From Deltaproteobacteria bacterium (lineage in GTDB: Bacteria; Myxococcota; Polyangia; Haliangiales; Haliangiaceae), in the NCBI GenBank assembly GCA_018262455.1, contig JAGSPR010000161.1:1-13101 (forward strand): a stretch of DNA of 13,101 nucleotides, given 5' to 3'. Position 1 is the stretch's first letter; each line of letters starts with the position of its first letter. Below, in pieces: positions 1,534-7,975 of the stretch. The translations under genes were made by a program, and so were the position numbers. The notes under the pieces were generated by a model that saw only the letters and a list, made by a program, of their open reading frames with translations, was not told where the DNA came from and did no database searches.

Positions 1534-1645
1534 TCATTCGTAGGCGATCGCGATGACCTCGACGTCGCCGCGCGGCAGCGTGACGCTGTCACCGACCCTG
1601 GGCGTCCTGCAGGGCCTGCGCGATCGGGGTCGGCCTCTCGAAGAC
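1534..1645 (-). pseudogene. Remnant of a GreA/GreB-family elongation factor, C-terminal end
   Basis: Read on the minus strand, the last 20 codons give VGDSVTLPRGDVEVIAIAYE and a TGA stop at 1534-1536. This fits the conserved C-terminal end of GreA/GreB, where GD-x-V, a P-x-G turn and a final I-x-Y recur. Immediately upstream, in a frame shifted by one base, the sequence reads TPIAQALQDAQ, corresponding to the SPxxxAL segment that normally precedes GD. So the C-terminal domain is recognisable but broken by a one-base frameshift. It is cut off at 1645, where the 24-bp repeat begins. The coiled-coil half of the protein, which reaches into the RNA polymerase secondary channel, is absent. A divergent Rnk-type protein is the alternative. 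Confidence 0.6.
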
Positions 1646-1917
1646 AGGACGCTCTACACTCTCACCACTTTGTCCCCGGACCGCCACTGCAAGTTCTCGA
1701 CAACAATCAGACTTCGCTCAGGACGCTCTACACTCTCACCACTCTCGCGAGGCCTAAGACCAGACCAACACGTGGCCGACCCATCGCGCGCGTCAGAGCC
1801 GAGGCCTTCCTCTGAGAGAGTGGTGAGAGTGTAGAGCGTCCTCTGCGGAAGGTTGGCAGTTTCATGAGGTTGCATCCGAAGCGCTCGGACCAGAGTGGTG
1901 AGAGTGTAGAGCGTCCT
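1646..1917. repeat. Nested inverted-repeat element with four identical 24-bp copies
   Basis: A 24-bp sequence that begins AGGACGCTCTAC and ends TCTCACCACT occurs four times without mismatch. Copies at 1646-1669 and 1720-1743 are in plus orientation; copies at 1819-1842 and 1894-1917 are inverted. The outer and inner pairs share nearly the same centre (about 1781), making a 272-bp near-palindrome. Spacers inside the arms are 50 and 51 nt and weakly alike (both carry TGCAA 17-18 nt in). The inner copies share three more bases (CTC), and AGGCCT recurs at 1750 and 1802. The ends behave like 24-bp terminal inverted repeats, as in a MITE, but no target duplication is visible. In the inverted orientation the repeat reads as three loosely related 7-mers (AGTGGTG, AGAGTGT, AGAGCGT), so protein-binding sites are another possibility. 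No credible protein is encoded inside. Confidence 0.9.
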
Positions 1918-2797
1918 AGGGAAACGAGAGGTCCGCGACGTAGCGCTGCCAGCGGCGCTCGAAGCCCTTCATGTCGCGTTCACCGAGGGCGTTGACCAGC
2001 GTCGCGTAGCCGGTGGGATCGTGGTCGCGCGCGGCCCGAAAGGCCCGGTAGAAGTCACGCAGCAGGCCGTGCTCCTGGAGGTAGTAGAGGAGGTAGCGGG
2101 ACTGCGCGTAATTCGTGCCGGTGTCGTCGCCGTAGAACGCCGTGCTGGTGAGCGCCGTGAGCGCGCGGAAGCTCTGCAAGCGACCGCTGGTGACGGTCTG
2201 CTGGAGCCCACCGAGCCGCCAGTTCGTGAGGCCCACGATGTGGCCGGTGCGCTCGGCGCTCTGCTCGAACAACGAGCCGAGGCCCTCGTTGAGCCAGGCC
2301 GGTGCAGCGGGGAAGTCGGCCTCGACGTAGGGGTGCACGATCTCGTGGACGAGCGTGCCTCCGCCGGTGGCGATGTTCATGAACAACGCGGCCTGGCTCG
2401 GGGAGTAGAAGCCGTAGGGTGTCGTCGGCGACTCGCCGGTCAACGTCTTGACGCCGCGCTCGTAGCTGGCCGCCGTGGTGAACAGATAGATGTCGAGGAT
2501 CTTGGACGGGCGCCTGGAGAAGAAGTCCTGCTCGAGCAGGTCAGCGGCCCACCGCACGGTCATCGAGCTGCGCTCGAGTGCGCCGGGCGAGCCATCCCCG
2601 ATCACCACGAATGGATCTTCGATCCGGATGCGGAGGTCGGAGAGCCGTTTCGCGTCGAGCCGCGCCCGCAGCATGGCGATGTGCTCGGCGTACTCGGGCT
2701 TCGAGAACGAGCCCTGGCGCGCGGAGGGATCGGAGTGGGCGGCGGGCGAACAGCTGGCGAGCCCGGCGAGCACGGCGACAACGAGTGACCTCCCCAT
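1916..2797 (-). CDS. Lipoprotein zinc metallopeptidase, gluzincin MA-like, 293 aa
   Basis: The N-terminus MGRSLVVAVLAGLASC carries a lipobox (Cys16), so the protein is probably lipid-anchored in the envelope. HEIVH at residues 151-155 provides two His zinc ligands and the catalytic Glu. WLNEGL at 168-173 supplies the third ligand (Glu171). This HExxH plus NEGxx arrangement is typical of peptidase-MA-like gluzincins. The preceding YGFYSPSQAALFMN strand fits the edge strand of that fold, and the C-terminal half is helical (YAQSRYLLYYLQEHG). Substrate is unknown. The stop TAG (1916-1918) shares two bases with the outer 24-bp repeat. The start has no clear ribosome site. The patatin-like gene lies 54 nt upstream on the same strand and may be co-transcribed. 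Confidence 0.85.
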   Translation of the reverse strand: MGRSLVVAVLAGLASCSPAAHSDPSARQGSFSKPEYAEHIAMLRARLDAKRLSDLRIRIEDPFVVIGDGSPGALERSSMTVRWAADLLEQDFFSRRPSKILDIYLFTTAASYERGVKTLTGESPTTPYGFYSPSQAALFMNIATGGGTLVHEIVHPYVEADFPAAPAWLNEGLGSLFEQSAERTGHIVGLTNWRLGGLQQTVTSGRLQSFRALTALTSTAFYGDDTGTNYAQSRYLLYYLQEHGLLRDFYRAFRAARDHDPTGYATLVNALGERDMKGFERRWQRYVADLSFP

Positions 2798-7659: not shown

Positions 7660-7696
7660 GTGGCGAGGTCACAGACGCTGCGCGCGCCAACGGCCC

Positions 7697-7940
7697 GGCT
7701 TTCGAGGCCGGACTCACGACGGCTGGCTTTGCAGGCCGGCCGAGCTCACGACGGCTGGCTTGCGGCCCGGCTTTGCAGGCCGAACTCACGACGGCTGACT
7801 TGCGGCCCGGCTTTGCAGGCCCACGACGGCCCGGCTTTGCAGGCCGGGCTCACGACGGCTGGCTTTGCAGGCCGGCCGGGCTCACACGACGGCTGGCTTT
7901 GCAGGCCGGCCGGGCTCACACGACGGCTGGCTTTGCAGGC
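7697..7940. repeat. Irregular tandem array, eight units based on GGCTTTGCAGGC
   Basis: Units start at 7697 (a variant with TTCGAGG), 7725, 7769, 7809, 7833, 7861, 7895 and 7929. Steps are 28, 44, 40, 24, 28, 34 and 34 nt. Each unit has the core GGCTTTGCAGGC, usually followed by CGG and by CTCACGACGGCT or CTCACACGACGGCT. The two last full units are nearly identical, while earlier ones differ by small insertions, so new units appear to be added at the right end, towards the pirin gene. The array ends with CGGCTCGTCGTGCAG, which partly reverses the CACGACG block. It lies 36 nt beyond the pirin stop codon. Confidence 0.85.
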
Positions 7941-7975
7941 CGGCTCGTCGTGCAGGGGTGAGACGCGCGGGCGGG

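Follow-up and report, generated by a model that had tools for sequence, protein, structure and literature searches.

The doubled inverted repeats at 1646–1917

The window, by which we mean the whole stretch of 13,101 nucleotides analyzed here, comes from an uncultured myxobacterium-like organism and carries at positions 1646–1917 four exact copies of the 24-mer AGGACGCTCTACACTCTCACCACT, two per strand, in a mirror-symmetric + + − − order. An outer repeat at the left end (R1, 1646–1669, + strand) is followed by a 50-nt spacer (1670–1719, pitch 74), an inner repeat (R2, 1720–1743, +), a centre of 75 nt (1744–1818), the inner repeat of the right arm (1819–1842, −), a spacer of 51 nt (1843–1893, pitch 75), and the outer repeat of the right end (1894–1917, −). 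Each spacer contains GCAA, 31 nt ahead of the inner repeat, and the place of the centre is taken in the relatives described below by a variable sequence of 49–94 nt or by a transposase gene. An earlier note, made from the sequence alone, had reported four identical repeats, two per strand, arms of repeat-spacer-repeat with spacers of 50 and 51 nt, and symmetry about one centre; all four copies proved exact, the arms were confirmed, and the symmetry holds to 1 nt. The note had also set the perfect copies against DNA between them that does not match, and this second part needs correction, as the left spacer and the reverse-complemented right spacer are weakly alike and align slightly better than shuffled sequences (71 of 2000 shuffles reach the score).

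Four identical 24-mers within 13 kb are far beyond chance. When 55 other loci (671 kb) were scanned for 13-mers present in at least three copies in both orientations within 600 bp, with places holding at least three such words listed, a single comparable place was found (L043, 10064–10124, 4 words). The GC content of the element is 58.8%, compared to 69.5% for the whole window. Two mechanically called ORFs, 93 and 73 aa long, overlap the element, but a codon-bias gene call kept neither, and a search with 10 window proteins gave no match to a transposase family.

To the right, the element touches a gene for a peptidase of 293 aa (1916–2797, − strand; DUF1570 above and Peptidase_MA_2 below the respective cut-off), whose TAG stop (1916–1918, −) shares its last two bases with the first two of the outer repeat. 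The peptidase C-terminus ends like those of nearly all of the 60 homologues printed, so that the protein is not visibly truncated by the element. Organism names were shown for eight of the 120 homologues listed, seven of them Kofleriaceae and one another myxobacterial MAG, so that the peptidase points to Kofleriaceae. To the left, positions 1537–1653 (−) encode a short peptide resembling the C-terminus of GreA/GreB; Pfam gave no support for such a remnant, and the candidate was dropped.

Diverged relatives at the ends of Y1 transposase genes

The exact 21-mer core of the repeat had no match in genome contigs or viral contigs, window positions 1600–1960 had none in plasmids or phages by blastn, and the 24-mer with up to three mismatches was absent from 30 genomes of a Kofleriaceae-type family (that of G005, the Kofleriaceae bacterium genome of locus L005). 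Among the first 45 loci, the best match to the 24-mer was 17/24, reached twice. The whole 272 bp gave matches at E ≤ 1 in 14 of 15 genomes, mostly in the centre and with a best E of 0.038; these were taken as chance and rejected as homologues. A trimmed 22-mer, allowed up to three mismatches in 317 genomes of the class, matched 10 sites in 9 genomes, and its reversed control did the same (10 in 9), which puts the count at chance level. The two of these 10 sites that were read lie in G024, a genome of the same Kofleriaceae-type family in which the same 22-mer variant occurs twice, and both have a second copy of a related repeat ~60 nt away. Since the reversed control was as frequent as the 22-mer, this lead rests on what was read afterwards. 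The earlier note had proposed a BLASTN search for the 24-mer and thought a dedicated element unlikely if it occurred nowhere else in the genome or in relatives and only as scattered single copies; the exact repeat was indeed found nowhere else searched, and the idea was rescued by diverged homologues, reached first through the 22-mer at three mismatches.

In G024, doubled inverted ends bracket a gene for a 324-aa Y1 transposase (L134, the same gene as L156; PF01797, 25.8 bits against a cut-off of 23; NCBIfam REP_Tyr_transpos, 37.4 bits, below the cut-off of 80). The protein had no match in the PDB by sequence; a PDB search with an alignment of the transposases gave two weak matches. Matches at E ≤ 1e-10 were present in 13 of the 30 family genomes. 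Among the 11 best (from 9 genomes, query included), eight carry inverted ends that are doubled at a matched pitch (61/60, 61/61, 60/60, 61/61, 65/65, 66/66, 66/65, and 56/56), one has irregular multiple copies, and two have a single inverted repeat. The right inner copy of L158 is degenerate and was picked up by the profile described below, and the transposase of L164 contains an in-frame stop. The motifs SNH-x-H and YIH-x-NPV are invariant in nine aligned transposases (L161 and L164 left out), eight of which match Y1_Tnp, and HTH-type Pfam models match part of the nine members (E ≤ 0.5; HTH_3 in four, best 8.1e-5; Bac_DnaA_C in two, best 2.5e-3). Of 120 database homologues listed, 16 are labelled by their source as RayT or REP-associated transposase.

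A search of the phylum, in which five candidates per genome were scored, found matches at E ≤ 1e-30 in 29 of 377 genomes, three of them from the family. Outside the family, doubled or tripled arms were found in at least 4 of 26 loci (L180 on one side only, L181, L183, and L187), most others having single inverted repeats or nothing clear; this set comprises 26 of the 27 loci L180–L206 (L191 left out), several of them truncated and 20 with an assumed gene position. Doubled ends are thus common among the close family members and sporadic elsewhere. In 20 transposase loci picked by Pfam score (L096–L115), the tests applied detected no doubled layout; GGGGACAG inverted repeats occur in two (L098 and L112), and L102 has a different one of 68 bp. 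The remote or partial homologues in L165–L168, L170–L172, and L174 had no such ends.

Two of these loci show other arrangements. In L098 (G001), a 66-bp imperfect inverted repeat (GGGGACAGGATCCACC..., 1079–1144 and 1852–1917) surrounds another Y1 transposase gene, and GGACGG in its inner part is possibly a degenerate second repeat. In L167 (G031), a remote Y1 homologue lies between tandem arrays of a GGAGTTAAG-type repeat with pitches of 54–116 nt, a different end architecture.

To link the window to these transposase ends, a profile was built from 40 repeats at the ends of 11 transposase loci, with the window excluded. It ranks the four window sites 1–4, each at 16.35 bits, the next best position in the window scoring 7.37. 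In a control, 1 of 1,279,834 positions (45 loci) reaches 16.35 bits. In 100 block-shuffled windows the mean maximum was 9.4 bits and at least one window reached 22.4, which means that a single high score is not proof; few trials are involved here, as the window repeat had been singled out beforehand. We regard the link suggested by the profile as strong rather than conclusive. The window differs from its family relatives in pitch (74/75) and in the first base of the repeat (A for G).

In all 9 loci checked, the transposase frame stops no more than 45 nt from the head of the inner repeat, and in 7 of them no more than 20 nt from it. Read likewise, one of the three frames of the window repeat would give a protein ending in VVRV. 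This C-terminus, one of several motifs tried, occurs in 1 of the 120 listed transposase homologues (P0142; 0.016 expected for that motif). The HUH motif is present in P0142, whose alignment extends over the HTH region, and these sequence features are suggestive of a candidate partner transposase for the window element. No viral contig encoding a relative of P0142 was found.

Gene-less copies and their position at gene ends

In two Kofleriaceae-type genomes, G024 and G002, the repeat GGGACGSTNTCCACT occurs in the same + + − − layout as in the window. The pattern GGGACRSTSTCCACT has 37 sites in G002, 27 in G024, and 2 in G023, that is, in 3 of the 30 family genomes, while the reversed pattern has none; a wider pattern gives 54 sites in G024. 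The 40 loci fetched, which cover all GGGACRSTSTCCACT sites, contain 41 site clusters: the + + − − layout is seen in 8, one-armed pairs (+ + or − −) make up 15, of which two form the ends of the L134 element that bears the transposase gene, and the others comprise 4 of the + − type, 10 single sites, and 4 of other kinds. Both arms have a pitch of 61 nt in 7 of the 8 complete tetrads. Same-strand neighbours 30–100 nt apart (n = 36) are at 61 nt in 33 cases, at 60 in two, and at 45 in one. Between arms, R1 identity is 93–95% and spacer identity 44–51% (random 26%), which together with the fixed pitch indicates that the length of the spacer is held more tightly than its sequence.

Seven full copies measure 211–256 bp, and each is lower in GC than its flanks. 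Among the dispersed arms, 18 of 35 have GYAA 25–33 nt ahead of the inner repeat (7.5% in shuffles), compared to 3 of 14 transposase arms. Judged by eye, the outer repeat of the paired arms in G024 is preceded by A in 24 of 24 cases and by YA in 19 of 24, and G002 is unlike G024 in this respect. If the repeat is taken to begin at GG, the ends of the window element read CA before GG and TA before GG. No target-site duplication is shared by the window flanks GAAGAC and AGGGAA (by eye); Y1 enzymes are not known to make one.

The single close transposase match of G002 (L159, G002:C385) has GGGGACGGTGTCAACC ends, which differ from the 37 dispersed GGGACGGTCTCCACT sites of that genome, and an enzyme matching the dispersed family was not found in G002. 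Such an enzyme may have been lost, the assembly may lack it, or both end types may be served by a single enzyme. G024 also has tandem duplications, with two same-orientation arms 106 nt apart in L139 and a distance of 149 nt between two inner-type repeats in L150, which looks like recombination or multiplication of arms.

Many outer ends lie at stop codons. When only the stops of long, codon-bias-supported frames are counted, and ends less than 215 nt from a locus start are left out, a stop codon falls within −6 to +3 nt at 20 of 54 outer ends (9 of 29 in G024 and 11 of 25 in G002), compared to 17 of 2146 control positions, which were taken 15–400 nt away and lie in many cases inside genes. 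TAG accounts for 16 of the 20 abutting stops, against 33 of 74 other stops in the same loci. In the window, the right end abuts a stop codon (the peptidase TAG) and the left end does not. The abutment suggests how such elements could spread in gene-dense genomes without breaking genes.

A probable miniature element with two transposase sites per end

Taken together, the 272 bp of the window are very probably a non-autonomous (miniature) transposable element carrying at each end, twice and at a fixed pitch, the recognition repeat of a transposase. A non-autonomous mobile element with doubled terminal repeats was the first of three readings offered in the earlier note, and it is supported by the doubled ends that bracket Y1 transposase genes in relatives and by the gene-less + + − − copies dispersed in G024 and G002. 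We infer both the mobility of the window element and a transposase in its own organism.

The element is best read as derived, in non-autonomous form, from a TIRtron-type element (TIRYT), a membership that rests on its relatives and not on its own genome. TIRtrons (Di Nocera et al. 2013, PMC3733652), like the relatives described here, have an HUH/tyrosine Y1 transposase with a C-terminal HTH lying between inverted repeats whose head is of the GGGGAC type; gene-less repeat copies occur, and the repeats may overlap the transposase gene. The difference is that here the repeat stands twice at each end at a fixed and matched pitch, and that gene-less copies keep the four-repeat layout. The motif GGGGWSAS, common to some but not all published TIRs and hence not defining, is not matched letter for letter (GGGGACGS or GGGACGS in the relatives, AGGACGCT in the window). 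Dimers and clusters of TIRs are mentioned in the published account, as are double palindromic TIRs and the double inverted repeats belonging to two Pseudomonas genes. We found no doubled ends at a fixed pitch in the text of the TIRYT/TIRtron accounts PMC3733652 and PMC6006769, and a literature search found no paper on doubled Y1 transposase ends, as far as the listings show. The note's remark that it knew of no named family with this layout has to be narrowed: a named neighbour exists, and it is the doubled arms of fixed pitch that we did not find in the text of these accounts.

From their length, HTH, and inverted-repeat ends, the transposases found here probably belong to Y1 subclass 2.1, which has been matched to RAYT group 1 (PMC6006769). 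In that 2018 survey of Y1 HUH proteins, subclass 2.1 is the second largest, no REP-like sequences were found near its genes, and the target of the C-terminal HTH domains is left open. The window element shares with REPINs and BIMEs (REP doublets with RAYT; PMC3116915, PMC8266576) gene-less inverted repeats, a long hairpin, predicted in our case, and the tie to a Y1 transposase. Unlike theirs as described in those papers, the window repeat is not palindromic and has no GTAG foot, and there are four repeats instead of two. Like bacterial MITEs as described in the text of PMC3733652 (70–300 bp), it lacks coding capacity and has terminal inverted repeats, but its ends belong to an HUH/Y1 enzyme and no target duplication is seen. 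It would work like the REPIN or MITE of a TIRtron, and the missing GTAG foot and palindrome mean that it is not a REP by definition. Against the published texts, what is new is the doubled equal-pitch ends on both gene-bearing and gene-less copies together with the stop-codon abutment, while the TIRtron-type kind is known, if little studied.

Full-length relatives are organized as R1-spacer-R2-[Y1 transposase gene]-r2-spacer-r1. A transposase of the same family, acting in trans, could recognize the doubled repeats of a gene-less copy and cut beside the outer repeat with its HUH/tyrosine site, with single-strand processing assumed by analogy with other Y1/HUH enzymes. With arms of equal pitch, one strand could fold on itself, R1 pairing with r1 and R2 with r2, to give two stacked 24-bp stems; the HTH domain might recognize the repeats in duplex form. 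An end placed beside a TAG stop leaves the gene whole. That all of this amounts to a distinct architecture, with a pair of sites at each end whose matched pitch is enforced, duplex repeats read by the HTH, a strand folded into two stacked stems cut by the HUH site, and a miniature partner family inserting at stop codons, is a tentative proposal that we consider possible rather than probable. The doubled equal-pitch ends and the gene-less tetrads offer a concrete, testable substrate for subclass 2.1 (probably TIRYTs), and if the architecture of two sites per end is true, it would give subclass 2.1/TIRYT enzymes a defined substrate.

The other two readings of the note, an RNA with a long stem and a double-headed array of protein-binding sites, have to be weighed against the miniature element. 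The window element is predicted to form a very stable hairpin on both strands (−155.8 and −164.9 kcal/mol, z −11.9 and −10.7), with a large folding energy as DNA too, and together with its place directly at the 3′ end of a gene, shared by many relatives, this could indicate a functional RNA or a bidirectional terminator or mRNA-end hairpin, in which two 24-bp stems would cap the peptidase transcript. When the spacers were shuffled and the repeats kept, however, 23 and 38 of 100 sequences folded equally well, so the stability comes from the repeats; the long stem is there in the prediction, but it is owed to them. Pairing between the spacers was rejected as an RNA feature. With no Rfam match at gathering thresholds, no terminator-like site in 1400–2100, and homologous repeats that bracket a transposase gene in relatives, such a role is very unlikely as the explanation of the element, although a mobile element might have such an effect secondarily. 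Four identical sites at a fixed pitch, with spacers free to change and, in many repeats of the profile training set, a head followed by two CAAC/CACT-like subsites 9–10 nt apart (by eye), would also suit an operator at which regulatory selection keeps four sites for a host DNA-binding protein. Yet the relatives have different pitches (56, 60, 61, 65, 66, and 68 nt, 74/75 in the window), not all of which correspond to whole helical turns, many copies sit at gene 3′ ends, the repeats flank a transposase, and 1400–2100 contains no promoter-like site, which makes an operator highly improbable.

The absence of the exact repeat from the collections searched could point to an adapter or a chimera, an assembly or library artefact; this is extremely improbable given that homologous repeats are arranged alike in independent genomes and that the window repeat fits the family profile. 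A further variant lies inside the miniature-element reading, and its probability is part of that reading's own: the window element might be a dead relic, the internal deletion of one autonomous TIRtron and not a member of a propagating miniature family. The single copy in the window and the transposase-bearing relatives with the same kind of ends agree with this, whereas gene-less repeat sites far outnumber the single close transposase match in G024 and G002 and all four window repeats are still identical, and we consider a relic rather unlikely.

Elsewhere in the window, positions 7690–7945, between the genes for a beta-CASP metallo-hydrolase and a pirin, hold imperfect tandem repeats of ~34 nt and 40 nt (GGCTTTGCAGGCCGGCC...CACGACGGCT).
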